DNA of 64,000 bases from NCBI GenBank assembly GCA_034928305.1, contig JAYFOZ010000003.1, positions 1 to 64,000 of the forward strand. The letters run 5' to 3'. The notes under the pieces were generated by a model. It was given only the letters and a program-made list of their open reading frames with translations, was not told the DNA's origin and ran no database searches. The position numbers and the translations under genes are program-made. Each line of letters opens with the position of its first letter. Positions within the stretch are counted from its first letter, which is position 1. Source of the DNA: Methanomassiliicoccaceae archaeon (GTDB lineage: Archaea > Thermoplasmatota > Thermoplasmata > Methanomassiliicoccales > Methanomethylophilaceae). This document shows, in pieces, positions 8,356-29,980 of this stretch.

Positions 8356-9198
8356 TCACTGTTTTCCGCCACATTCTTTCAATATCCTCACGGCCGCCGG
8401 ATTCCCCGGTTCCTTCTCGTTCATAGCTCCGGCGACAATGCTTGCCTCGCGGAGCTTGCCTTTATCCATAAGGCTGAGCGCCAACATCTCCATCGCACCG
8501 ATGTGGGAAGGATCGGAACGTAAAGCTTTGGATGCGAATGCACCTGCGGACTGGCTCTTTCCATCTGCATGCATGACGTAAGCTGCTATTGCATTAGCGT
8601 CGGAAGAGTTTTTATCGTTCTTGAGCAGAACACGCGCAAACTTGACAGCTTCCTTCTCCATCCCTGCGAATATCAGGGCGGTGCAGCGTGAACGCTTGAC
8701 ATCATAGCTTTCGGGAAAATCATTCAACAGGGATTCCGTGAGTTCCAGTGCCTTTCGGGATTCGCCCGAGGACGATAGCCCGTCAGCCATGAGTACCCTG
8801 TCCGAGATGAACGGCCGCGAGATCTTTTCTACGACAGATACAGATTCTCCGTAACGGCCCAACATATTCAGCACCAGTGCGTACTCTCTCATGACGGCGT
8901 CTTCCTCCCCCAGGTCAGCGAGTATCCCGGCCGCCAGGTCCGCTCTTCCGAGGCCCCTCATTGCCTGCGCCACCTGGAACAGCGTCACGGTTCTCTCGGG
9001 AAGGTTTTCGCTCAATTCTTCAAGAACGTTCTCGGATGATGTATTTCTCCCGATTATCATGAGCGTCGATGCGCACTGTATTCGAACGAACGGGTCGCCG
9101 GAAGAAGATGCCAGGGACAGCAGCATCGCCTCTGCGGCATCGATATTGCCGGCGGAGATTGCTTTTTTGACCTCGAAGAATGTTTTTTCGACTTCCAT
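8356..9198 (-). CDS. TPR-repeat protein of unknown function
   Basis: 280 residues made almost entirely of helix-turn-helix repeats of about 34 residues with TPR-like spacing of Ala, Gly and Tyr (for example VFEKISRP-type and ALELTESLLNDFPESYDVKRSR segments). No catalytic motif, signal peptide or membrane segment is visible. The ATG at 9198 is preferred over an in-frame start at 9246 because a TATA-like TTTATTTC lies 27 nt upstream of it. It is divergent from the AAA ATPase/DUF4435 pair across an 88-nt shared region with an inverted repeat. It may be an accessory or regulatory partner of that pair (inference) or an unrelated scaffold. Confidence 0.75.
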   Translation of the reverse strand: MEVEKTFFEVKKAISAGNIDAAEAMLLSLASSSGDPFVRIQCASTLMIIGRNTSSENVLEELSENLPERTVTLFQVAQAMRGLGRADLAAGILADLGEEDAVMREYALVLNMLGRYGESVSVVEKISRPFISDRVLMADGLSSSGESRKALELTESLLNDFPESYDVKRSRCTALIFAGMEKEAVKFARVLLKNDKNSSDANAIAAYVMHADGKSQSAGAFASKALRSDPSHIGAMEMLALSLMDKGKLREASIVAGAMNEKEPGNPAAVRILKECGGKQ

Positions 9199-9286
9199 CG
9201 TGGCACAGAGTTGTTCAAATGAAATAAAGATAGTCCCTTGGGACAACGACGGGTACTTAAAATATCCTTACAGACATGCGGACATA
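9199..9286. promoter_or_regulatory. Divergent promoter region with 12-bp inverted repeat
   Basis: This 88-nt spacer serves the TPR gene (minus) and the AAA ATPase gene (plus). TATA-like boxes sit at 9221-9229 (minus, 27 nt from its ATG) and 9255-9266 (plus, 26 nt from its ATG), so both transcripts look leaderless. Between them, at 9233-9244, is GTCCC-TT-GGGAC, a compact dyad placed where one bound protein could control both directions. Confidence 0.45.
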
Positions 9287-10360
9287 ATGAAGATCAGAAC
9301 GATAACGGTTTACGGGCTCTTCGACGAATGCGACTGCAGCGTCAGTCTCAACCCTGGGCCTGTGACCTTTATCTATTCGACGAATGGGTTCGGCAAATCG
9401 ACCGTCATGAGATCGGTCGTCGCCCTGCTCAGAGGGGAGTTCGACGTACTTTCACGCATGCCCTTCGAGAGGATGGATGTTAATTTCTCCGGCGATACGA
9501 CGCTTATCGTCGAAAACCGCAACGAAATTAACGTCCTCATACAAAAGAACGAACTCGAACAGACGATAGAAGAAGCAGAGCTGCACAGATTGTTCCGGGT
9601 ATCGTACATCCCGCCGGAGAGACAGTCGGTCAGGAGGAAGGACGGGCATGTTGTTCCCGCCATTTCGGTGTATGCGGCCGAGATAAAGGACCGCATCAGA
9701 TATGCAAAAGAGAACGGCAACCTTTTGTTACCTACGGATTCTCAACGCCTCAATCTGTCGGACGGAGACTTCGTGCTCCTCTTTAAAGACCTCAAAGCCA
9801 AGTTGGATTTCATGAAAGGGGCCGGACTCGAGCCCGAGATGCCTTCCGGCCTTCGCTTCCCGCCCGAGCGCCACGACCTGACATCCAGAAAGAGGCAGGA
9901 TTATCAGAATCTGGCCTTCGGTCTTAGCGAATATATCAGAAGATTCTACCGGCTCGCAGAATCCATAGTCGTATTCAAGGATATCATCAACGGTCTTTTG
10001 ATCGGAAAGAACATCGAGATAAACGAAAAAGACAACCTGACCGTAAGGCTCAACAGCGGTAAGGAACTGCCTTTGATCTCGTTGTCCTCGGGAGAGAAGC
10101 AGATCATGGTGATAATATACCGCCTGCTTTTTCAGACGGAAAACAGTTCCCTGGTGGCCCTCGACGAGCCCGAGAACTCCTTGCATGTGGAATGGCAGCA
10201 GAAGCTCGGGAACATACTCGTTGATCTGGCGAAGCTTAGGGACCTTCAGTTCATCATAGCAACCCACTCGCCTCAGATAATCCATGACAAATGGGATATG
10301 GCAAGGGAGCTGAAAGCTAACAATGCGGGATACACTGACGCCGGCAGACATTGCGAATGA
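9287..10360 (+). CDS. AAA/ABC-type ATPase, AriA-like subunit of a putative PARIS-type defence system
   Basis: 357-residue SMC/RecF/OLD-like ATPase: Walker A in STNGFGKSTVMRS near residue 35, ABC signature LSSGEKQIM near 265, and Walker B LVALDEPENSLH near 288, followed by the H-loop region (IATHSPQ). The short middle section has little coiled coil. The ATG at 9287 has a TATA box 26 nt upstream. The longer frame to 8891 overlaps the antisense TPR gene and is rejected. The next gene, a DUF4435 protein, overlaps its end by 38 nt. An AAA_15/AAA_21-type ATPase followed by a DUF4435 TOPRIM protein is the known architecture of PARIS (AriA-AriB). Membership is inferred from architecture only; the ATPase is on the short side. 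Confidence 0.8.
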   Translation: MKIRTITVYGLFDECDCSVSLNPGPVTFIYSTNGFGKSTVMRSVVALLRGEFDVLSRMPFERMDVNFSGDTTLIVENRNEINVLIQKNELEQTIEEAELHRLFRVSYIPPERQSVRRKDGHVVPAISVYAAEIKDRIRYAKENGNLLLPTDSQRLNLSDGDFVLLFKDLKAKLDFMKGAGLEPEMPSGLRFPPERHDLTSRKRQDYQNLAFGLSEYIRRFYRLAESIVVFKDIINGLLIGKNIEINEKDNLTVRLNSGKELPLISLSSGEKQIMVIIYRLLFQTENSSLVALDEPENSLHVEWQQKLGNILVDLAKLRDLQFIIATHSPQIIHDKWDMARELKANNAGYTDAGRHCE

Positions 10361-11189
10361 GATATCGATGCTGATGTCTTCCGTCGAGGATACCGTCCTC
10401 GTTGTCGAGGGGGTAACAGACAGCAGGCTCTACGGCAAGTTCAGCGATAAGGATCATGTGAAGATAGTCGTCGGTCATTCCAAAGACAACGTACGGAAGT
10501 CCGTCGACGAGTGTTGGAGCAGACGCGGCCTGATAGCGATTGTCGGCATAGTCGATTCCGACCTCGACAGGATCGTGGGCAAAAAACGGTCTCCTCCTAT
10601 TTTTCAGACCGACCGGCGCGACCTGGAGATGATGATGATCGGCAGCCCGGCCCTCGACGACATATTGTGCGAATATGCCGATGCGTTCGCCCTAGAGGAC
10701 TTCGAAAGTAAATACGGCCCGATTTTCGACGCCGTAGTGTCGGCGTGCTATCCTGTGGGCCTTTTGATGTACATCTCGGACAGGCTCAAGCTGAGCCTAT
10801 CTTTCAGGAACCTCGACTTCGAGAGATTCATAGACCGCAGGACGCTCCAGGTCGACATCAAACAACTTGTGAACGAGGTCATCAGCTCGACCATGAACGT
10901 CTGTATCGGCAAGAACGAGCTTCTTCGCCATGTAACGGAAGAGATGACGGAAGATCGTGACCCGATAGATTTTGCCAGGGGACACGACGCGGTAGAGGTC
11001 CTTCTCATCGGCCTGAAATATATTTTCGGCTCGTTCAACAGCAAGAACCTGCGCGAAGGCGAGCTTTCCGGATCTCTGAGGCTGGCATTCAGCGACGTTT
11101 ACTTCCACGGCACAGACCTGTACTCCGATACAAGCGACTGGGCGAAGAAGCAGTGTTTCAAACTGTGGTCACTCAATCTTAAGGTCTGA
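10323..11189 (+). CDS. DUF4435 (TOPRIM-like) protein, AriB-like putative effector nuclease
   Basis: 288 residues. The N-terminal half shows a TOPRIM-like pattern: DTVLVVEGVTDSRLYGKF near residues 23-41 (glutamate after the first strand) and GIVDSDLDRIVG near 80 (acidic DxD). It then has RDLEMMM near 98, as in DUF4435 proteins. In PARIS, AriB is a DUF4435 nuclease released by AriA on sensing a phage anti-restriction protein. Family knowledge supports a toxic nuclease role, but this protein is untested. It starts inside the end of the ATPase gene (38-nt overlap), which predicts coupled expression. Its 3' end overlaps the convergent xseB gene by 21 nt. Confidence 0.8.
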   Translation: MRDTLTPADIANEISMLMSSVEDTVLVVEGVTDSRLYGKFSDKDHVKIVVGHSKDNVRKSVDECWSRRGLIAIVGIVDSDLDRIVGKKRSPPIFQTDRRDLEMMMIGSPALDDILCEYADAFALEDFESKYGPIFDAVVSACYPVGLLMYISDRLKLSLSFRNLDFERFIDRRTLQVDIKQLVNEVISSTMNVCIGKNELLRHVTEEMTEDRDPIDFARGHDAVEVLLIGLKYIFGSFNSKNLREGELSGSLRLAFSDVYFHGTDLYSDTSDWAKKQCFKLWSLNLKV

Positions 11190-11402
11190 CCTCTTGACGC
11201 CTTCGGATGTTTCCGTTATCTTCTGCACTCTGCGTTCGCTTTCCTCGAGTATCTTCTTGCAACGGTCCCTGAGCACGGTCGCACGTTCGTAGACCTCCAA
11301 ACTTTTGTCAAGATCGAGTGTGCCGCTTTCCAGTTCCTTAACCAACGCTTCGAGTGCGGTGATGCATTCCTCGAAGTTCATTTTTCCAATATCTTCATTC
11401 AT
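11169..11402 (-). CDS. xseB: Exodeoxyribonuclease VII small subunit
   Basis: 77-residue helical protein with the XseB pattern NFEECITALEALVKELESGTLDLDKSLEVYE, which forms the hairpins that coat XseA. It overlaps the end of xseA by 8 nt and, on the opposite strand, the end of the DUF4435 gene by 21 nt. ExoVII degrades single-stranded DNA from both ends. It is bacterial in distribution, so an archaeal copy suggests old lateral transfer. Confidence 0.92.
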   Translation of the reverse strand: MNEDIGKMNFEECITALEALVKELESGTLDLDKSLEVYERATVLRDRCKKILEESERRVQKITETSEGVKRSDLKIE

Positions 11403-12729
11403 CGTACTTCACCTTCCTGACCTCCGCATCGGCCCCTCCGTCGCGGAACGCGATGGATATCATCGATCCCTGCGAAAGAGACTTGGCTGACGTTAAAGTA
11501 TGACCGTCCTTGTCCGTCACATAGCTGTATCCCCTTTCCAGGACACTGCGCGGGTTAAGGGCGGACGACCTCTGATCTATCGCATCGAGCTTCGACGCGG
11601 CATCCTTGATGCGACGGTCGATGGCCAGCGTCATCCTTCCCGAGACGAACGCAAGGCGTTCGCACAGCGATGAGACTCTGCTCGAAGCGGCGGCCGGCGA
11701 TATCTTGGACTCCACCGAGTTGAAGCGGGACCTCATGCCCTGTACAGAGGACCTTAGGGCTGCATCGGCCCTGTCCGAGAGCTGTCCCACGCGGATCTCC
11801 AGCATTGAGAGTTTCTCGTATTGGCGCGATATCTCCAATTTTGACGCTGCCATATCGACACGCGAGCGCATTTTAACCGCTACGTGGTCAAGCGCCCTGC
11901 CCACGCGTATTCCGAACCCGTCCACCTGTTTGATGACCTCTCGCTTGTCGCGGAGCGCCATCTCTGCGGCCCCGGTCGGCGTCGGAGCCCTCACATCGGC
12001 AACGAAATCGGCTATCGTAAAATCAGATTCGTGACCGACTGCGGAAATGATCGGAGCTTTAGAAGAAGCGATCGCCCTAGCGACCTTCTCCTCGTTAAAG
12101 GCCCAGAGGTCCTCGATGGACCCGCCTCCTCTTCCCACGATGATGACGTCCACTTTTTCTCGGTTGAGGGCCTCGATCCCCCTTACGATGGATTCGGCTG
12201 CGCCTTCTCCCTGGACCTGGGCGGGCGCAAGCAAGATGTCTGCGGGAAAAAGCCTCCCGGACGTTGTAACTATATCATGGATCACCGCTCCGCTCTCCGA
12301 TGTGACGACGCCTATTGTCCTGGGATATACTGGAAGCTTCCTTTTTCTGGAAACATCGAAGAGACCCTCGCTCTCCAGCTTCTTCCTGAGCTTCTCGTAC
12401 TCTAGGAATAAGTCGCCTATTCCCGCACGGTTCATCGTCTCCACGATGAACTGGTAGCTGCCTTTGGCGACATACAGGTCGACGTGTCCGAAGGCCATGA
12501 TCTTCGTATTGTCCTGGGGTTCGAAATCTATCCTCCCCCTGGACCCTTTGAACATGACGGAACGTATTTCGCTGCCTTCGTCCTTGAGCGTGAAATAATA
12601 ATGGCCGCTGGAGTATAGCTTGAGGTTCGATATCTCGCCAATGACCCAGACATCCTTAACGGCGGGTGATTCCGACAAAATGGAACGCACCCTTGTATTA
12701 AGCTGTGTGACGGTCAGCCTGTCTGCCAT
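11395..12729 (-). CDS. xseA: Exodeoxyribonuclease VII large subunit
   Basis: 444 residues, the normal XseA length. The N-terminal OB fold (SNLKLYSSGHYYFTLKDEGSEI) is followed by the catalytic domain with the invariant strings VIIVGRGGGSIEDLWAFNEE and SAVGHESDFTIADFVADVRAPTPTGAAE. A long coiled-coil region and a C-terminal segment (LERGYSYVTDKDG) complete the family architecture. The ATG at 12729 follows a GGGGGTT string that can act as SD. The small subunit follows with an 8-nt overlap. It is divergent from the hotdog thioesterase across 92 nt. All recognisable catalytic regions are intact, so the archaeal enzyme is probably active. Confidence 0.95.
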   Translation of the reverse strand: MADRLTVTQLNTRVRSILSESPAVKDVWVIGEISNLKLYSSGHYYFTLKDEGSEIRSVMFKGSRGRIDFEPQDNTKIMAFGHVDLYVAKGSYQFIVETMNRAGIGDLFLEYEKLRKKLESEGLFDVSRKRKLPVYPRTIGVVTSESGAVIHDIVTTSGRLFPADILLAPAQVQGEGAAESIVRGIEALNREKVDVIIVGRGGGSIEDLWAFNEEKVARAIASSKAPIISAVGHESDFTIADFVADVRAPTPTGAAEMALRDKREVIKQVDGFGIRVGRALDHVAVKMRSRVDMAASKLEISRQYEKLSMLEIRVGQLSDRADAALRSSVQGMRSRFNSVESKISPAAASSRVSSLCERLAFVSGRMTLAIDRRIKDAASKLDAIDQRSSALNPRSVLERGYSYVTDKDGHTLTSAKSLSQGSMISIAFRDGGADAEVRKVKYDE

Positions 12730-14253: not shown

Positions 14254-14363
14254 GCAACCCGCATTGCTACGACAGTAATTAATTCCGCCGATTTTCCCCG
14301 GCTGAGGGTCATTGAGCATTGGTATGGAAAGAATTACTATCTCCCGACAGATATGGGGGTCAG

Positions 14364-17057
14364 ATGAACAGGTCCAAGAGCATCGATGAAATATACGAAG
14401 AGGTGAGGGAATACGATATCGTCATAACGAACGATGCTCCGCTCGCGACCGCCCTAAATGCGCGTATAGACCGACCTACCGTCGGAGGCTTTGCATACAC
14501 GCCGAGGCAGCTGGCGGCCGACCTTTCGATTCAGATACTTGGCGAACCGCTAAGGAGCGACCTTGACGTCGTTGCCACCGTTTCCGATGAGACTGGTTAC
14601 GGGTTCAAGTATGTTCATGGCGAAATCGAAAACATAAGAAACATAAGGAAATACACATCGGACGTCGAAAAATACCTGTACTCGCGCCTGTCCCGCAACA
14701 TCTACAATTCTTACAGGGTACTTCCGACGATAGAAAAGGCAATGGACATCTTTGTCCCCGAAACATACCATGAGAACAGCAGGCACGGGTACGTAATTTC
14801 CGATAACATGTTCGCCGGAAAAAAGACGGCCGTGATCGGGATAGAATTCTTCGACGACCTCGACAAACATTTCATACCGATAAAGCACGAGGAAATCGAA
14901 ATAGCCGTTCAAGATGAGGATTTCGAGATCGGCGAAATATTCGAGATAGGCAACGACAGGCAGATCGCCGAGAACATCATCGACCTGATCGACTCCGAAC
15001 GCGCCACGGACGTAGCCATCGTTATGGATACGGAGAGCGGTATCGCCGATGCCGTCCGCGCCGCTTTGTATAGGCGCGGAATACCGTTCAAGAATACTAT
15101 GGCCGTCCGCGATCTTTCCCAGATAAGGGACTATCTGCGATTCCTTAATCTGGGCGCATCATACGGAACTGTCAGGGTCAGACATGTGAGGGAGCTTTTC
15201 TCCGCTTACAAGGGCACCATAAAATCCAAGCATGACAACGTGCTCCTTTCCAGGCTTCCGGAGATCGGAGGAAGGGCGCTGGAACTTGCGGAATGTATGA
15301 AGAACCTGGAAAAAATGACATTCCTTGAGGTCTGCGACCTGGTGGTGGGCGAACGGCACAGGCCCCAGGTCCATATCCTGCTTGAAGAGCTGAATTTTAC
15401 AGAAAAGAAAGTGACTCCGCAGCTGATCGGAGAAATGAACTACGCCGTGAACAACGTATCCGAGCTCCACCACAATGAGCAGATACCCGACAGCGAAAAG
15501 AAGGGCGTTCTGTTGGCCGACTGCCACCGCTCCATGTTCGTCGACCGTCCTTTCGTCGCGTTCCTCGGAATGGGGGAGGAATGGGGCAACAAGATAATCG
15601 GAAGGCAGTATATCGATAAAGAGGCCGAGGCGGAGATGGACGCAATGAAATTCAGAGTCCTTCTTCAGCAGGGGACATCCCGCATCTATGCCGTGAACAC
15701 CACAAAGAACGGTAAGGCCGCCCGTCCGACCTCGCTGTTCGACGGTATCTGCAAACTTGAGGGCAAAGTGCACTCCATCACCGGTTTCGGGGACATTGCC
15801 CAGGTAAGGAAAGGGTCGTGGTACAAAGAAGAGCCCGAGATCTTCCCCTATAGTGGCTCCGAACCCGTAGATTGTGGCGCCGACTGTGGTTGGAAGTTTA
15901 CCAAATCGTCATACAACAACTACTGCGAGTGCCCCCGTGCATTCTATTATGGAAATCTTGTTACAACGCCGGACAACGAGCATACCGCTTTCGGCAACCT
16001 GCTGCATGAGTTCGCCGAGATGTACGTCTGTTATCCCGACCATGTTAGAAAAAGAGGCCTTGAATATTATGCAGAGCGTATAGGCGAAACCTACGCCGGC
16101 CTGTCGTGCCCCCTCATGGAGAACGTGGATATGGACCGCATACGCGTTGCCCTGAGAAACCTGATCGCCTTCATAGATGTCCAGAGACGGGAACCTGTCC
16201 CCTTGGATATGAAAAACACATCGCGCAAGTATCCAAACGGCCTTATGGAATCAGAAGGGCTTGAGATGTGCAGCAGTTACGCCGAGAGGGACATGACCTC
16301 TTCCGAATATCCGATATACGGCAAGTTCGACCTCCTGATCGGCCCCTGCTCGATCGATTACAAGACAGGGAAATACAATTCGGAAACCGAGGTTGTCAAA
16401 GGTCTCGATCCGGAGAACAAAGGCTACATGGAAACTCAGCCGATGATGTATCTCGCGCTCATCCCAGAGGCCGGGACGGGAGGAACTCCGGTTTTCCGCC
16501 TTTTCTTTATATTTGGCACCGACGGACGTGTCAAAGAAGGAACCTCCGTGCTTGACAATAAAGTGGACGTGCGTCTGCTGAAGGAAACAAAGATGGAGGC
16601 GCTGGCAGACCCGAATTCACCTCCCAGGGAGGATTTCGAGGGCGTAACGTCCTATGCCGAGATGTATGAAAACTGGGATTCTTTCATATCGCCGATACTG
16701 TCGTCGGGTCTTTCTCCAGAGAATTGGGAAAATGACGGAGTGCTTATCGATTCCATATTGTCATCGTTAAGATTGACATCGAACAAAACAAACATCAAAA
16801 AAGTCGTTGGCGCTTTGAAGAGATTAAAGAAATTTTCAGAGCCCGACTACTGGGCATGCGAAGGAGAGGTCTGCATCCCATCCGACTCCATGGGCAGATT
16901 CCTCGAGAAACTGTTGGATGATCACGCAGCCGCTTCGAAAAAGATGAGGTCCAGATTCGCCCCGGAACCGCGCATGGATTGCAGCAGATGCAATTTCATT
17001 TCTGTTTGCACCCGCGAGCCTGTTATCGCAGAAGAGGAGGGCGAAGAAGATGTCTAA
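14364..17057 (+). CDS. AddB-like Fe-S PD-(D/E)XK nuclease with degenerate helicase region
   Basis: 897 residues from the ATG at 14364, which follows a GGGGGT string. A TTG at 14319 is possible but less likely. The N-terminal 500 residues resemble an inactivated UvrD-type fold and lack a GxGKT loop. The C-terminal nuclease has YGKFDLLIG followed by IDYKTGKY near residues 650-665. Four cysteines bracket it as in AddB: one in YNNYCECPRAFYYG near 520, and three in MDCSRCNFISVC near 871-883. They predict a [4Fe-4S] staple. It overlaps the AddA-like gene by 8 nt. Likely role: end resection together with that helicase. Archaea normally use HerA-NurA for this. Confidence 0.85.
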   Translation: MNRSKSIDEIYEEVREYDIVITNDAPLATALNARIDRPTVGGFAYTPRQLAADLSIQILGEPLRSDLDVVATVSDETGYGFKYVHGEIENIRNIRKYTSDVEKYLYSRLSRNIYNSYRVLPTIEKAMDIFVPETYHENSRHGYVISDNMFAGKKTAVIGIEFFDDLDKHFIPIKHEEIEIAVQDEDFEIGEIFEIGNDRQIAENIIDLIDSERATDVAIVMDTESGIADAVRAALYRRGIPFKNTMAVRDLSQIRDYLRFLNLGASYGTVRVRHVRELFSAYKGTIKSKHDNVLLSRLPEIGGRALELAECMKNLEKMTFLEVCDLVVGERHRPQVHILLEELNFTEKKVTPQLIGEMNYAVNNVSELHHNEQIPDSEKKGVLLADCHRSMFVDRPFVAFLGMGEEWGNKIIGRQYIDKEAEAEMDAMKFRVLLQQGTSRIYAVNTTKNGKAARPTSLFDGICKLEGKVHSITGFGDIAQVRKGSWYKEEPEIFPYSGSEPVDCGADCGWKFTKSSYNNYCECPRAFYYGNLVTTPDNEHTAFGNLLHEFAEMYVCYPDHVRKRGLEYYAERIGETYAGLSCPLMENVDMDRIRVALRNLIAFIDVQRREPVPLDMKNTSRKYPNGLMESEGLEMCSSYAERDMTSSEYPIYGKFDLLIGPCSIDYKTGKYNSETEVVKGLDPENKGYMETQPMMYLALIPEAGTGGTPVFRLFFIFGTDGRVKEGTSVLDNKVDVRLLKETKMEALADPNSPPREDFEGVTSYAEMYENWDSFISPILSSGLSPENWENDGVLIDSILSSLRLTSNKTNIKKVVGALKRLKKFSEPDYWACEGEVCIPSDSMGRFLEKLLDDHAAASKKMRSRFAPEPRMDCSRCNFISVCTREPVIAEEEGEEDV

Positions 17058-19926
17058 GGAACCGAACCAGTCTCAGAAGAGCATCGCCGAGGGGCTGAAC
17101 GGCTTCTATGTAGTGGATGCAGGGCCCGGAACAGGCAAGACTTTCACGATAGTCAGCAGATATGTGAACATCCTTAGCAGGCCGGACGTTCAGACGAGAG
17201 ACATCCTGTTGCTCACATTCACCAAGAACGCCGCCACCGAAATGGAAGAGCGTATCCGCGAGAGGCTTGCCGAGGGAGACCTAGGGAAGGATACAAGACA
17301 GATACAGGCCGGGACATTCGACTCTTTCTGCTACTCGATCGTCAAAGAATCACCGGAGTCTGTCAGCGACTTCCTGGGTTTCGGCGAACGACTCACCCGC
17401 AGCGCGGCGCTTGTGGACAACGAAACGCTCAACAGAGAGTATTTCAGTGACTTCTTTGACCGCTTCAACGCCGAGCGCGGCAGCGAATACGGAGATATCG
17501 CCGTGATGGCCAGCACCATCCCTTCGGACGTGTACGCTCTTATCGGCAAACTCATGTCGAAGGGGATCGTCCCTCTCAGCAGAGGATGGTTCGGAGGAAG
17601 GGACGGCAAGGACCTTCTGGGAGATACCGCAAAGGTCCTTTCATCACTGTATAGGATGAACGGAGACTCCAAGGACAGGAATAAGCTGTTGAAGCGCATA
17701 TCCAAGATCGTCGGCGGGGGGGAGCTTATCTCTTCCGGGTTCCCGCCGGTTTCGGCGGAGGAGGAGATCCCTTCGGAGATCCTGGAATCTGCGGCCAAGG
17801 AAGACAGATCCGGGATACTGAAATTCATACATGACGTCTATTACGAATACATACGGCGTTCGGTCGCCGACGACAGGCTCACCTACGGTCTTACCTCGGT
17901 CTTCGCATTCATAATCTTATACAGCAACGCGGGCGTCAGGGAACGCATGTCCTCCAGATATGTGATGATAGATGAATTCCAGGACACAAACGAGAACCAG
18001 ATGATGATCGCACTGATGCTCCTCAGGGAGCCCAACCTCTGTGTGGTTGGAGACTGGAAACAGGGCATCTACGGATTCAGGTTCGTCTCCATCGACAATA
18101 TAATCGATTTTGAGAGGCGCGCCGTAAGCATGCGTTCTTACCTCAACGACGACATAGAGCGCATTCCATTCAGAATACCGGCCGTCACGAGGCTCACATT
18201 GGACCGGAACTACCGCAGTTCACAAGAGATAATAGATACTTCTTTTGCCGTGCTGGGTATCCCTGGTTCCGATAACGAAAAGGTATCGCTCGATCCCGCG
18301 ACCGTCACCAAACTTATGTCCGGTAACGAAGCCATCGGCAGCGACACGCACGTGAGGTTTGTGAAGACTCCGTCATCCGACCAGGCCGCGGAGACTGTTT
18401 CCAGGATCATAGATTACGTCACCGGCGAATACACCGTGCACGTCGGCGAAGAGACCAGAAGGCCGAAGTACGGCGATATCGCCGTGATATGCAAAAACAG
18501 TCGCATGTGCCGTGCCGTCTACGAAGAGGCGAAGTCTAGAGGCGTCGAAGCCTTCCTGCAGGGGGACGTGGAGATCATGTCCACCAGGGAGGGGAAGCTG
18601 CTGCTCGCATGGCTGAAATACATAAACAACAGGCAGGACCCGTGGGGGCTCGTGGGCATTCTTTCCGACATGGAATACAGTCTCGATGACATCAAAAGGA
18701 TCTTACGGCCCGACAGTGAGGGCCGCTTTGCCGATGCCCCTTCGGAGATCTCCGAATTCAGGAGGGAACTGCTTAAGAAGAAACGCAGGGTCACGGACCT
18801 TATATCCTCCGTCTTCTCGCACTACGGACTGAACAACGACGTCACGCAGGCGATAATAACCACGCTGTCCTCCGCCCACCGTTCTTCTCTGCTGACGATA
18901 TCCGACCTCATCAGGATAATCGAGACCGATATCGCAGAACACAATACGTACAGCATCGACGCGGACCTGAACTCCGATGCGGTTCTGATACAGACGATGC
19001 ACAAATCGAAGGGGCTTGAATATCCGATAGTTATAATACCGCAGCTGGACAAAGGTGTCATCCCTAATACCAGGGGCGATACCTCTGTCATCTCGTTCAA
19101 CGAGACGGACGGCGTCAGGTGCACCAAGGAACTGGTATCGGCCGACGGCTACCTTAGGACAGGGCGTTCATGGAAGACGATGCTCGTACGTGCGTCCGCA
19201 GACAAAGATTACAGCGAGGACCGTCGCACGCTGTTCGTGGCGATTTCGAGAGCTGAACAGTATATCACGATGATATGCGGCGACAGGCCGTCCAAATTCA
19301 TATCGACGTTGTCGGGAGACAGTTACGAGGAGGCGCTGGGACATCTGTCCGCCCCCGTGTCCGATAAAAAGGAACGCGTCATACGAAAACCAGAACTGGC
19401 ACCCTTCCAATCGCGTCGCCGGGTCATCGGTGTCCATGACATCATGGTCTTCAACGGTCTTTCTCCCGAGGAGGGGGCCGACGAGGTTTCGGGAAAGGGC
19501 ATGGAGTACGGAAAGAAAGTTCATGCGATCGCCGAGGGGCTTGCAAAGGGCATCGAACCGAAGGAAAGCGTCCCGGAGATACCCGCCATAAAGGAGGTCC
19601 TGGCATCCGTCAGCGGCGCAGACCTGATACTCGTCGAGGCGCACTGCCTGCTGCCTTTGAACGGCATCAACGTCTCGCTGAGCGGTTACATCGATATGCT
19701 GGCACTTTATCCGGACCGCGCTGTGGTACATGATTACAAGACGGATGTTTCAAAAAACAACCTGGAAGCATACAAGCTTCAGCTCAGCGTTTACGCTTAC
19801 GCAGCAGAAGGATTCTACAAGAGGCCGACAACATGCGTCATAGATTTCGTATCTTTGGGCGACACTGTCGAATTCGACCCTATACCCAGAGATGAAATAG
19901 AATCGGCTGTACAGATGATTTTATAA
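17050..19926 (+). CDS. AddA/RecB-like UvrD-family helicase-nuclease
   Basis: 958-residue superfamily 1A helicase fused to a RecB-type nuclease. Motifs in order: Q-like NQSQKSIAE at 6-14, Walker A AGPGTGKTFTI at 24-34, motif Ia LLLTFTKNAATEMEERI, motif II MIDEFQDTNENQ near 308, motif III GDWKQGIYGFR, motif IV LDRNYRSSQEI, and motif VI TLFVAISRAEQYI near 730. The C-terminal nuclease shows GYIDMLALYPDRAVVHDYKTD near 880-897, followed by the QLSVYAYA helix (Ql..Y motif). With the preceding gene it forms a heterodimeric AddAB-like machine. The start overlaps the stop of its partner (ATGTCTAA). Nothing is visibly missing. Confidence 0.92.
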   Translation: MSKEPNQSQKSIAEGLNGFYVVDAGPGTGKTFTIVSRYVNILSRPDVQTRDILLLTFTKNAATEMEERIRERLAEGDLGKDTRQIQAGTFDSFCYSIVKESPESVSDFLGFGERLTRSAALVDNETLNREYFSDFFDRFNAERGSEYGDIAVMASTIPSDVYALIGKLMSKGIVPLSRGWFGGRDGKDLLGDTAKVLSSLYRMNGDSKDRNKLLKRISKIVGGGELISSGFPPVSAEEEIPSEILESAAKEDRSGILKFIHDVYYEYIRRSVADDRLTYGLTSVFAFIILYSNAGVRERMSSRYVMIDEFQDTNENQMMIALMLLREPNLCVVGDWKQGIYGFRFVSIDNIIDFERRAVSMRSYLNDDIERIPFRIPAVTRLTLDRNYRSSQEIIDTSFAVLGIPGSDNEKVSLDPATVTKLMSGNEAIGSDTHVRFVKTPSSDQAAETVSRIIDYVTGEYTVHVGEETRRPKYGDIAVICKNSRMCRAVYEEAKSRGVEAFLQGDVEIMSTREGKLLLAWLKYINNRQDPWGLVGILSDMEYSLDDIKRILRPDSEGRFADAPSEISEFRRELLKKKRRVTDLISSVFSHYGLNNDVTQAIITTLSSAHRSSLLTISDLIRIIETDIAEHNTYSIDADLNSDAVLIQTMHKSKGLEYPIVIIPQLDKGVIPNTRGDTSVISFNETDGVRCTKELVSADGYLRTGRSWKTMLVRASADKDYSEDRRTLFVAISRAEQYITMICGDRPSKFISTLSGDSYEEALGHLSAPVSDKKERVIRKPELAPFQSRRRVIGVHDIMVFNGLSPEEGADEVSGKGMEYGKKVHAIAEGLAKGIEPKESVPEIPAIKEVLASVSGADLILVEAHCLLPLNGINVSLSGYIDMLALYPDRAVVHDYKTDVSKNNLEAYKLQLSVYAYAAEGFYKRPTTCVIDFVSLGDTVEFDPIPRDEIESAVQMIL

Positions 19927-26431: not shown

Positions 26432-26453
26432 TTCCGTATTGTTACAGTGGGCT

Positions 26454-27641
26454 ATGTCTGACTTTAAATTCATCCACTGCGCGGACCTGCATCTGGGCAG
26501 CAGGTTCTCGGGAATAAGGTCCAGGAACGGGGACCTTGCGAAAAAGATGACGGAGTCCACATTCTCTTCTTTCTCAAGGATAGCCGACCTCGCACGTTCC
26601 GAGGACGCAGATTTCATGGTGATATCGGGAGACGTCTTCGACAAAGAGACGATCACTCCTCTGACCAGGTTCCGCTTTGCCGAAATCCTAGAAGATATGA
26701 AAATCCCATGTTTCATCGCATGGGGGAACCATGACCATACGACGAGCTGGGAGGACAGCATTCCTCTGCCGAGGAACGTCCATGAGTTCGGCGGAGAGCC
26801 CGAGCAACAGATACTGGACCTGAAGAACGGCGGTACCGTCGAGATATCCGGCATAAGCTTCACCTCAAAAAATACCAGCGAAGACCTGGCAGTGAAGCTG
26901 GACGGCAGGAAGGACATTTTCACCGTCGGATGCGTGCACTGCGACGTCGATTCCCAGGACGGATCGGGTTACGCGCCCACCCGGCTTGGCGATCTGATCC
27001 CGAAGAACATCAACTATTGGGCACTGGGTCACATCCATAAGCGCGCCGTGCTGCACGAGCGCCCTTATGTCGTATATCCCGGGAATTCACAGGGAAGGAA
27101 CATCAAAGAGTCTGGAGAGAAGGGCGCTTATGTCGTCAAGGTCGCCTCGAACATAGTCACCGAGATGCGTTTCGTGCCCACCCAGACGATGGTGTGGGAG
27201 AAGATGGAAGTAGATATCACCGGATGCGATCTGGGCTCTTTCGTCGAACGCGCTTCCTCGCTGATCGGGAGAGACTCCGTGGTGCGCCTTGTGATAAACG
27301 GGCGCGGAGTGCTCGACCGCATGCTAAGGTCCGACCCTGACGATGTTATGGAAGCGATACGTAAGAGGGCCGCCGGTACGTTGGCCGATATCGAGGTCAA
27401 CTCAAAACCGGAGAGAGCGCCTGTCGTCGGAGGGAACGACCTTGTATCGAAGGTCGCGGCCGTGTCCGAAGCGGTGATGAACATGGAAAGGAAAGACCTG
27501 ATCGAAACGATCTGCAGCACCAAGACTTCGAAAAATCACCTGCAACAATATTTCGAATCACTGAGCGACGAGGAACTCAGAAACGTCGTCAACGATGCGA
27601 AGATCAGATTGATGGAGCGTTTCTCGGAGGCGTCCGAATGA
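26454..27641 (+). CDS. Mre11/SbcD/YhaO-family DNA exonuclease (metallophosphoesterase)
   Basis: 395 residues. All phosphoesterase motifs are present: HCADLHLGS near 8, VISGDVFD near 55, WGNHDH near 90, HCDVDSQDGSGYAPT near 160 and ALGHIHKR near 190. The C-terminal third is helical and resembles YhaO rather than the long archaeal Mre11 capping region. The enzyme is expected to cleave DNA ends with Mn2+. Its partner gene starts within the stop codon (ATGA overlap 27638-27641). The pairing with a membrane-anchored ATPase is the YhaO-YhaN arrangement of Firmicutes. A herA-nurA neighbourhood, typical for archaeal mre11-rad50, is absent. Confidence 0.9.
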   Translation: MSDFKFIHCADLHLGSRFSGIRSRNGDLAKKMTESTFSSFSRIADLARSEDADFMVISGDVFDKETITPLTRFRFAEILEDMKIPCFIAWGNHDHTTSWEDSIPLPRNVHEFGGEPEQQILDLKNGGTVEISGISFTSKNTSEDLAVKLDGRKDIFTVGCVHCDVDSQDGSGYAPTRLGDLIPKNINYWALGHIHKRAVLHERPYVVYPGNSQGRNIKESGEKGAYVVKVASNIVTEMRFVPTQTMVWEKMEVDITGCDLGSFVERASSLIGRDSVVRLVINGRGVLDRMLRSDPDDVMEAIRKRAAGTLADIEVNSKPERAPVVGGNDLVSKVAAVSEAVMNMERKDLIETICSTKTSKNHLQQYFESLSDEELRNVVNDAKIRLMERFSEASE

Positions 27642-29980
27642 TCATAGAGTCAGTGCGTATCCGCCTCTTCGGAAAGACCGCGAACAAGGATTACGGTCAG
27701 ATGTTCCCGGGACTTACCGTCTATTACGGCGAGAACGAGAGCGGGAAGACCACGCTTAAGGAATTCATCAGAACCACCCTTTTCAAAACTGCAACGCGCA
27801 AGAACAATTATCCGCTGACCATGAGCACCGATTCCGGCGAGGTGGACTGCATAACCGATTCGGGAGAGAAGTTCACTATAACAAGGGCCGGCAACAAGAT
27901 AGTGTCCAGCATCGGAAAGATGCCACCGGAGATATCCGGAGTGGACCCGGACGTCTACAGGAGCGTTTACGCCATGAACCCGGACGACCTCATAGATACG
28001 GCCGTCGTCGATTCCGGCGATATCAAAAGGAAATTCCTAACGGTTCCCGGGGGAGAGAACATGCCCCAGATATCGGAATCCATAGATTGCGAGATGGAGG
28101 CTCTTCTGAATCAGTCCAAGATCACCGATTCCAGGGGAATCGGCAAGCTTAGACGCGAGATCGACGAAAACGCCAAAGCCATCGATCTAGCCAGATTGAA
28201 AGGACCCGAATATTGCAGGTTGGCGAAGGACGAGGCCGAAATAATATCGGAACTCGCTGTGCTCAGAGAGAAGCAGGCGGAAGGCGAAAAGGTCAGGGCC
28301 CGGATAAGAGCATACGGAGAACAGAAGAAGAACATGCTCGAATACGGGGAGCTGGAACTGAGCCGTAACGTTATGGGCGACGCCGACAGGGCTCCGCCCG
28401 AGGGAATGGCCAAGTACAGGGAGCTGAGGGACTCGGTCGGATTCAGGCTCGCAAAAAAAGAAGATGCCGAAAAGAAACTGGACGAGATCGGAGAAAAACT
28501 CGGAGGCGCCTCTTTCGATGCCGTAGAACGGAACAGAGCGCGCATACTGTCCCTTAACGAGAACATAGGCTCATACAGATCCGCGGCGTCCGATATGAGG
28601 GCGATCGGTGAAGAAGTTTCCATACTGGATTCGGATATCGCCTCGCTGATGGACGGCAGACTGGACGAAGATACCGCCAGGAACGCCGACACGGGCCAAG
28701 ATGTGATCGACCGGGCCTCCGATACACGGATGCCTAAAAAGAACAACGTGCCTGCCATCGTGCTCTTGGCTCTTGCGGCCGTTTCGGCCGTGGCCGCATT
28801 CGTTACGGCCGTCCCATACATTTACGTCGTCGCGGCGGTGTTCGCCGTTCTTGCGGCGGTCACCGTTCTCCGTTCCGTAAAACCTGCCGCGGACCTCTTC
28901 GACGACTACATCGTATCCCGCGGATTCCCGCCCGGTACACGCAGAGAGGAGGTCGCCGGGCTCTGTTCCGTCATAGACAGCATCAGGAGGTTGGAGGAAA
29001 AGCGCCAGTCCTACATTGGACGCGTCAGAGACATGGAGGCATCGATAAACGGATTAGATTCCGAACTTGCATCGGTAGCATCCGAAGTGGGCATCGAACG
29101 CGTTTCCTTCGAGGCCGACGTGCGCATGCTCAACGCCCTCGTCGCATCTCTCTCCGGGATAACCGATGCAGCCAAAACGGCAGAAAGTGCCCGCTCCGAA
29201 TATCTGGACGCCCGGGCCGTCCTCGACGGATACCTCGCCCCCTATGGGTCGGCGGAGGAGCTTGAAAGGATAGTGAAGCTCAAGATCGAACGGGACCGGA
29301 CCGACGAAAGGATGGATAATATAAAAACCATCTTGGGTTCGGCCGGCATCGACATGGTATCCGAACCTCCCCCGCTGCCGGACGACCTGACTGCGGAAAT
29401 CGGTGAAAAACAGATAAATCTTGGAAAAATAAGCAACCAGAAGGCCGCCATACTCAGAGACTCGGACACCGAGCGCCTCTACAACGAGAGAAGCTCGCTG
29501 GAGACCGAGCTGTGCTCGGAGAAGCGCAGGTGGGGGGTCCTTTCGTTGGAGAAACATATATCTGACGCCGCATGCGACGATATCTACGACAATATGCAGC
29601 CGCGCGTGATCCAGACCGCCGACAGATATCTGGAGATGATGACGAAGGGGATTTACCGCATGGACGGTAACCCTCGTACGAAGAATGTTTCCATACGAAG
29701 CGGGACAGAAATAAAATCTAAGGATCAATGGAGTTCCGGCCTTGCGGGGCAGGTATGCCTCTCGCTCAAGCTGGCGGTCGCGAAGGAGATGTCGGACGAA
29801 AAGCTTCCGATATTGTTGGACGATGTGTTGCTGGTGTTCGATTCGGAAAGGAAGCTCGGCGCATGCCGTGCGCTTTCCGAGGTCGCAAAGGATATGCAGA
29901 TCATATTCTTCACCTGCGACCGCGAGACATATGGATTCATGAAGCAGGTTGGAGCGAAAACGGTGGAGATATCGCTCTGA
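27638..29980 (+). CDS. YhaN/Rad50-like SMC ATPase with internal transmembrane hairpin
   Basis: 780 residues. N-terminal Walker A YYGENESGKTTLKEFI near 29-45. Coiled coil then follows, and a hydrophobic hairpin at about 370-412 (PAIVLLALAAVSAVAAF and YIYVVAAVFAVLAAVTVL). More coiled coil leads to the C-terminal lobe with ABC signature-like WSSGLAGQVCLSLKLAVA near 697 and Walker B LPILLDDVLLVFD near 725. There is no CxxC zinc hook; the membrane hairpin replaces it at the tip. Known YhaN (SbcE) proteins share this feature. It probably tethers the nuclease complex to the membrane. Confidence 0.88.
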   Translation: MIIESVRIRLFGKTANKDYGQMFPGLTVYYGENESGKTTLKEFIRTTLFKTATRKNNYPLTMSTDSGEVDCITDSGEKFTITRAGNKIVSSIGKMPPEISGVDPDVYRSVYAMNPDDLIDTAVVDSGDIKRKFLTVPGGENMPQISESIDCEMEALLNQSKITDSRGIGKLRREIDENAKAIDLARLKGPEYCRLAKDEAEIISELAVLREKQAEGEKVRARIRAYGEQKKNMLEYGELELSRNVMGDADRAPPEGMAKYRELRDSVGFRLAKKEDAEKKLDEIGEKLGGASFDAVERNRARILSLNENIGSYRSAASDMRAIGEEVSILDSDIASLMDGRLDEDTARNADTGQDVIDRASDTRMPKKNNVPAIVLLALAAVSAVAAFVTAVPYIYVVAAVFAVLAAVTVLRSVKPAADLFDDYIVSRGFPPGTRREEVAGLCSVIDSIRRLEEKRQSYIGRVRDMEASINGLDSELASVASEVGIERVSFEADVRMLNALVASLSGITDAAKTAESARSEYLDARAVLDGYLAPYGSAEELERIVKLKIERDRTDERMDNIKTILGSAGIDMVSEPPPLPDDLTAEIGEKQINLGKISNQKAAILRDSDTERLYNERSSLETELCSEKRRWGVLSLEKHISDAACDDIYDNMQPRVIQTADRYLEMMTKGIYRMDGNPRTKNVSIRSGTEIKSKDQWSSGLAGQVCLSLKLAVAKEMSDEKLPILLDDVLLVFDSERKLGACRALSEVAKDMQIIFFTCDRETYGFMKQVGAKTVEISL

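Follow-up and report, generated by a model that had tools for sequence, protein, structure and literature searches.

A PARIS-type AriA/AriB gene pair as a fixed, vertically inherited locus in one family of Methanomassiliicoccales archaea

The gene pair and its neighbours

The window analysed here is a stretch of 64,000 nucleotides from a Methanomassiliicoccaceae archaeon, a methanogen (GenBank assembly GCA_034928305.1, contig JAYFOZ010000003.1, positions 1 to 64,000). On its forward strand it carries two overlapping genes, for which an earlier, sequence-only reading had proposed a PARIS-like defence function. The pair and the flanking genes that serve as context are located as follows.

8356..9246, minus strand: TPR-repeat gene, upstream flank, in 36 of 39 family loci (context only)
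9287..10360, plus strand: ariA-like gene, ABC-type (AAA_15/AAA_21) ATPase of 357 aa, proposed sensor and inhibitor
10323..10360, plus strand: overlap of the ariA and ariB reading frames, 38 nt
10323..11189, plus strand: ariB-like gene, predicted DUF4435 TOPRIM nuclease of 288 aa, proposed effector
11169..11402, minus strand: xseB, exonuclease VII small subunit, downstream flank, in 39 of 39 family loci (context)
11395..12729, minus strand: xseA, exonuclease VII large subunit, downstream flank, in 39 of 39 family loci (context)

Positions, protein lengths and the 38-nt overlap agree exactly with the sequence-only reading; ATG codons at 9287 (ariA) and 10323 (ariB) open the two frames, which close with stops at 10360 and 11189, respectively. 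The overlap likely couples translation of the two genes; it is shorter in most other loci, and the length of 38 nt is not general. Both frames and their key motifs are preserved in all 50 aligned family loci (with Ser-38 of AriA replaced by Thr in two), and the pair can therefore be taken as real rather than as a chance arrangement of open frames. In 51 of 51 aligned loci, comprising these 50 and a single copy from outside the family (genome G109), ariA lies upstream of ariB as a separate, adjacent reading frame.

For comparison of the surroundings, 40 AriB loci were fetched with 11–15 kb of flanking sequence, 39 of them from the archaeal family. The genes xseB and xseA are convergent with the pair in all 39, the deepest genus (g11) included, and in the window xseB overlaps ariB tail-to-tail by 21 nt. 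TrkH and TrkA lie beyond the TPR gene in most of the fetched family loci, and none of xseB, xseA, TPR or TrkH/TrkA adjoins the G109 copy. The ten immediate neighbours in the window encode TrkA, TrkH, the TPR protein, XseB, XseA, a thioesterase, a PD-(D/E)XK protein, a UvrD helicase and two proteins without a Pfam match; no defence gene was recognised among these ten.

Two further groups of genes in the window were noted. At 14319–19926, 3 kb from the pair, a PD-(D/E)XK gene and a UvrD-helicase/PD-(D/E)XK gene stand next to each other, which we take to be AddB/AddA-like; together with xseBA they give this archaeon a set of DNA end-processing genes of bacterial type. At 26439–29980 a calcineurin-like nuclease gene is followed by an SMC/Rad50-like gene, and the two appear SbcD/SbcC-like by eye.

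Sequence motifs, predicted folds and relation to known systems

In the detection rule for PARIS (PMC9122126), bit thresholds are combined with gene adjacency: a protein matching AAA_15 (at least 32 bits) or AAA_21 (at least 27 bits) adjoins one matching DUF4435 (at least 27 bits). The first protein of the pair was matched by AAA_15 (4.1e-19, 69.9 bits, cut-off 32.1) and AAA_21 (66.5 bits, cut-off 27), the second by DUF4435 (2.4e-8, 34.5 bits, cut-off 27), and the genes overlap. By this rule and by predicted fold the pair is of PARIS type, and a PARIS-type function is predicted for it. No above-cut-off match for either protein was found in NCBIfam among the matches listed. With the PADLOC profiles, one of the checks proposed for the sequence-only reading, both assignments were recovered; the best model for the ATPase was AriA (1.4e-31), with the PtuA profiles ranking next, and the only AriB match was that of the second protein (1.2e-16).

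The motifs of an active ATPase are intact in AriA, namely a Walker A (N33..G36-K37-S38), the signature SSGE at 267–270, a Walker B (DEPE, 293–296) and H327; the signature and the Pfam matches together confirm the ABC-signature AAA ATPase that had been described. K37, S267-G269-E270, D293-E294 and H327 do not vary across the 50 family rows, and position 38 is Ser in 48 and Thr in 2. AriB, likewise, is the DUF4435 protein that had been named and not a member of another family, and the TOPRIM-like Glu and DxD attributed to it are present as E29 and D78-x-D80. Residues E29, D33, D78, D80, D97, D100 and G220-H221-D222 are identical in all 50 family loci, D82 is found in 48 of 50 rows and E102 in 49 of 50, leaving the TOPRIM Glu and acidic residues of a PARIS effector intact. 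In E. coli AriB the TOPRIM catalytic Glu is E26 (PMC12409363), to which the archaeal E29 would correspond.

AlphaFold2 models of both proteins were built from 43-row alignments, with mean pLDDT values of 93.0 for AriA and 93.7 for AriB. In Foldseek searches the best 15 rows for the AriA model were all PARIS AriA. Z scores of 20.3–25.3 were obtained against six PARIS AriA entries, the top row being 8v46_B (Z 25.3 by VIA-align, 327 residues, rmsd 6.0), and the first non-PARIS entry, the retron-Eco7 ATPase, followed at 18.7. A search of PDB chains with the 43-row AriA profile gave the same order, with AriA chains at 1.1e-33 to 1.2e-32 and the retron Ec83 ATPase next at 1.4e-12. For AriB, phmmer and the 43-row profile (hmmsearch) gave chance matches only against PDB chains. 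Its model had two Foldseek matches in the PDB at E <= 0.001, both PARIS AriB; Z was 14.9 against 8v46_D and 8ux9_A, again both PARIS AriB (254 residues, rmsd 4.5), and the next-best value, 7.8, belonged to OLD nucleases. The high rmsd in several structural rows is expected for flexible multidomain chains.

These structural comparisons, also proposed with the sequence-only reading, bear it out for both proteins and separate the pair from its more distant relatives. Against PtuA (Septu, retron Ec78/Ec83) and the Rad50/SMC ATPases the AriA model reached Z 16–18.7, below AriA itself, and the partners of PtuA and Rad50 are an HNH protein or Mre11, whereas the archaeal ATPase is partnered by DUF4435. 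The possibility that the ATPase would instead group with a housekeeping RecF/OLD clade did not materialise, as AriA structures match best. OLD-family nucleases (including retron Eco8 and Gabija-type proteins) share the combination of an ABC ATPase with a TOPRIM domain, but in OLD the two are joined in a single polypeptide and in the archaeal locus they are two overlapping genes; the AriB model matched OLD C-terminal regions at Z 7.5–7.8, clearly more weakly than PARIS AriB.

The closest characterised system is thus the PARIS of E. coli B185 type (8ux9, 8v45–8v49), which has in common with the archaeal pair the side-by-side genes for an ATPase and a DUF4435 TOPRIM protein that exceed the detection thresholds, the Walker A and B motifs, the signature, and the TOPRIM Glu and acidic residues. 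It is the best sequence match for the archaeal AriA and the best fold match for both proteins. The E. coli AriA has 464 aa, against 342–359 aa in 49 of 50 family rows (456 in the remaining one). From the short ATPase the sequence-only reading had drawn a possibly different trigger, from archaeal viruses; this is unsupported as stated. AriA length in relatives varies widely, from about 375 to 464 aa, and what the family chiefly does without are variable insertions after residues 86, 97, 113 and 155, which are present in most relatives. The loops absent from the archaeal AriA are variable in bacteria too, and on both grounds a short AriA was rejected as a qualitative novelty. The most variable block of AriA by column entropy is residues 141–160.

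Distribution, inheritance and loss

With AriB of the window as query, orthologues were found in 92 of 102 genomes of the archaeal family, in 42 of the 45 good ones (at least 90% complete) and in 13 of 14 genera, mostly as a single match per genome, second matches being short fragments. Across the order the count was 93 of 147, the only carrier among the 45 genomes outside the family being G109. The phyletic survey in Methanomassiliicoccales that the sequence-only reading had proposed therefore places the pair almost universally in one family and nearly nowhere else in the order. In an even sample of the phylum the 43-row profile matched 24 of 292 genomes, every match lying within the family. 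The matching contigs are assigned to Methanomethylophilaceae, Methanomethylophilus, Methanoplasma and Methanomassiliicoccaceae archaea, and the carriers come from guts, rumen, termites, digesters and sediments.

Other immune genes of the same genomes are patchy: cas1 was detected in 27 of the 102 family genomes (13 of 45 good ones) and the type I restriction domain HSDR_N in 20 (14 of 45). The difference between AriB and cas1 in good genomes has a Fisher p of about 2e-10, uncorrected for ancestry. The Pfam DUF4435 profile found only 60 of 102 family genomes, against 92 with the family's own protein, and one of the 60 (G033) was matched at another locus; since the general profile under-reports the locus, surveys that use it might record as patchy what is in fact a core gene. 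The G033 match is a second DUF4435 reading frame of 648 aa at an unrelated locus (L191:5973-7919), in a genome that also holds the core pair, and may be a DUF4435 system that is fused or of another kind.

Both genes are under purifying selection, as estimated from only four close genomes (dS 0.65–1.1), giving dN/dS of 0.103 for AriA and 0.089 for AriB, with nine neighbours at 0.039–0.140. For 33 loci with four neighbours, the AriAB tree was compared with a tree of TrkA, TrkH, xseA and TPR. The normalised Robinson-Foulds (RF) distance was 0.20; label-shuffled trees averaged 0.99 (lowest 0.93 of 200), and the neighbours compared with one another gave 0.40 (xseA vs Trk) and 0.33 (TPR vs Trk). Taken singly, AriB stood at 0.23 and AriA at 0.50, so that the AriA-only tree is weaker evidence of vertical inheritance; the Mantel correlation of AriAB and neighbour distances was 0.936. 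Because the neighbour genes are linked to the pair, this congruence shows inheritance with the locus, and it is the breadth of presence that argues for inheritance along the species tree. Distribution, synteny, invariant residues, dN/dS, the tree and the patchiness of cas1 and restriction genes together lead us to conclude that the pair was fixed in the family ancestor and has been passed on vertically since.

The nearest relatives outside the order are pairs from a clostridial group (Cellulosilyticum ruminicola and Clostridia metagenome-assembled genomes, L130-L134), with AriB identities of 33–36%. A quick tree was made from 34 AriA+AriB rows; in it, the 23 from the family formed one clade (support 97) with G109 as sister (100), and the clostridial pairs L130 and L132-L134 came next (95, midpoint root); three rows, G109 among them, have long branches. 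On this midpoint-rooted tree, passage of the pair from a bacterium into the archaea is no more than likely. AriA has 440 aa in G109 and 394–454 aa in the clostridial group, which fits a shortening of AriA in the family ancestor. The clostridial pair occurs in 9 of 24 genomes of its bacterial family group, against 92 of 102 for the archaeal pair, and its neighbours (NUDIX, HD and GH94 genes) are unlike those of the archaeal locus. As this sister group is itself partly syntenic, mobility may be lower across the whole subfamily than in PARIS elsewhere. Phage records gave no relatives at E <= 1e-3, and IMG/VR held six distant ones at 22–26% identity.

Like ariB, xseA is concentrated in the family, PF13742 being found in 93 of 102 family genomes and 2 of 45 others of the order, where the count rests on an OB-fold domain that also occurs in other proteins; exonuclease VII, too, was apparently acquired by the ancestor of the family. 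By hand count, xseA and ariB are both present (89) or both absent (48) in 137 of the order's 147 genomes. The exceptions run in both directions: G005-G007, G071, G096 and G136 have xseA without ariB, and G027, G039, G046 and G091 have ariB without detected xseA (with contig ends in at least some). G109 also has xseA, but it lies on a different contig and is broken into two frames. Because it reflects mostly one ancestral event, the coincidence carries little weight, and the idea that AriAB guards or depends on exonuclease VII was set aside. An in-frame TAG was seen inside otherwise open frames of xseA (G071, L158/L168) and cas1 (G053). These archaea are known to use pyrrolysine, and the codons may represent readthrough or assembly error.

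Ten family genomes had no AriB match. Five of them (G101, G029, G042, G071 and G096) are incomplete (59–84%) or broken at the locus. In two more, G060 and G068, the whole block of ariAB and xseA is missing; as the TrkA match is absent too, this could equally well reflect a gap in the assembly or a large deletion, and the joint loss was not considered telling. The remaining three, G005-G007, lack AriB at an intact site and belong to one genus, g5, which is losing the pair. G006 and G007 (0.7–0.8 Mb) have TPR–xseB gaps of 111 and 169 nt with no remnant of either gene, and G005 keeps an intact-looking AriA without AriB. A fourth member of the genus, G004, has an intact AriB and an AriA frame of 281 codons (L172:5720-6565) from which about 80–90 middle residues are absent, either a minimal AriA or a decaying copy. 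If AriB is a toxin that AriA restrains, AriA could outlast AriB but not the other way round; the pattern seen agrees with this, although the case is one genome. In that genome, aligned by eye, the positions of W336 and D334 are taken by Pro and Asn. W336 is Trp in 51 of 51 aligned loci and in 10 bacterial or viral relatives (61 with an AriB partner), and proline appears at this position only in the G005 AriA, whose AriB is lost. On this alignment pattern we hypothesise that W336 forms part of the surface by which AriA would hold AriB.

Possible function and rival readings

In E. coli PARIS, an AriA hexamer sequesters up to three AriB, which are released as an AriB dimer (PMC11455837) by triggers such as Ocr; the dimer is a two-metal RNase that cuts tRNA-Lys, -Thr and -Asn (PMC11455837, PMC12409363), and according to the latter this cleavage arrests growth. 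Because motifs and folds are conserved, the same chemistry is the best guess for the archaeal pair. By analogy, AriA would bind ATP, oligomerise and keep AriB as an inactive monomer until a trigger that fits the AriA assembly causes AriB to be let go. The freed AriB would dimerise, with its TOPRIM acidic residues binding two metal ions, and would cut RNA, most likely in tRNA anticodon stems, so that translation and growth would halt. We consider it probable that the pair is a functional PARIS-type sensor/effector that entered the family ancestor, became fixed at its place between the TPR gene and xseBA, and from then on was passed down vertically.

What the sequence-only reading had proposed therefore stands in sequence, architecture and predicted fold, and falls where it implied an ordinary mobile defence system. 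PARIS is described from hotspots on prophages and satellites (PMC9122126); the archaeal pair is syntenic, vertically inherited and near-universal in one family. Patchy presence and variable context are usual for PARIS without defining it, and neither is seen here. That the pair is nevertheless an ordinary mobile PARIS, merely common in this family, would agree with the published rule and with the fact that plasmids and viral contigs carry PARIS-type pairs whose profiles match, but we regard it as very improbable: the pair occupies one locus in 39 of 39 cases and occurs outside the family only in G109, cas1 and HSDR_N are distributed quite differently in the same genomes, and intact synteny with congruent trees is hard to obtain through repeated transfer. 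We are just as doubtful that the pair is a relic without function, or a repair ATPase of OLD/RecF type whose partner is unrelated; one genus is losing the pair, and Rad50/SMC share folds with such ATPases, but dN/dS is about 0.1, catalytic sites are invariant, and the structural matches to AriA and AriB exceed those to OLD, Rad50 and PtuA.

A domesticated pair deserves closer weighing. The family ancestor may once have captured an abortive-infection toxin/sensor pair that then became a core checkpoint, constitutively in place and cleaving tRNA on an internal or broadly conserved signal, with the C-terminal W336 of AriA as the AriB latch, a possibility that we hold tentatively. Its stricter form appears a shade less probable still: a housekeeping module acting as a constitutive stress or DNA-damage checkpoint through tRNA cleavage on an internal signal, the antiviral role being secondary or lost. 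The signal on AriA might, with the same reserve, be for example a repair intermediate or an ATP state near ExoVII/AddAB. Single-copy, near-universal presence at a fixed locus, rates of AriA and AriB that resemble those of neighbouring genes, the DNA-metabolism neighbours (xseBA and the PD-(D/E)XK and UvrD genes at 14319–19926) and the agreement of xseA and ariB across the order all speak for domestication. That agreement, however, is mostly one shared ancestry with exceptions both ways (G005-G007 and G136; four genomes with ariB in which xseA was not detected); the pair is dispensable in the small-genome genus g5, unlike an essential checkpoint; and no xseA was found in the fetched flanks of the clostridial relatives. 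An immune gene seldom shows near-fixation, synteny and ordinary rates, and these features suit a housekeeping role equally. A pair that is still a protective brake, antiviral or directed against mobile elements, is narrowly favoured over a purely housekeeping one. As HSDR_N is present in only 20 of 102 family genomes, a second line behind type I restriction, the only type considered, is unlikely as a general account.

Among the matches listed from open-licence PMC literature, no paper on the pair in Methanomassiliicoccales was found, and the word PARIS is absent from the main texts of a survey of archaeal immunity (PMC12988326) and of a survey of rumen defence systems (PMC11834463). What is new here is a PARIS-type pair as a fixed, vertically inherited core locus. 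In the former survey, of 7,747 archaeal genomes (2026), patchy distribution is given as a hallmark of defence systems (PMC12988326). A pair of PARIS type that has become fixed in an archaeal family, keeps its synteny and evolves slowly offers a testable exception to the patchy, mobile pattern of defence: a module of immunity now belongs to the core genome, or else normal physiology has taken over a toxin of abortive infection.
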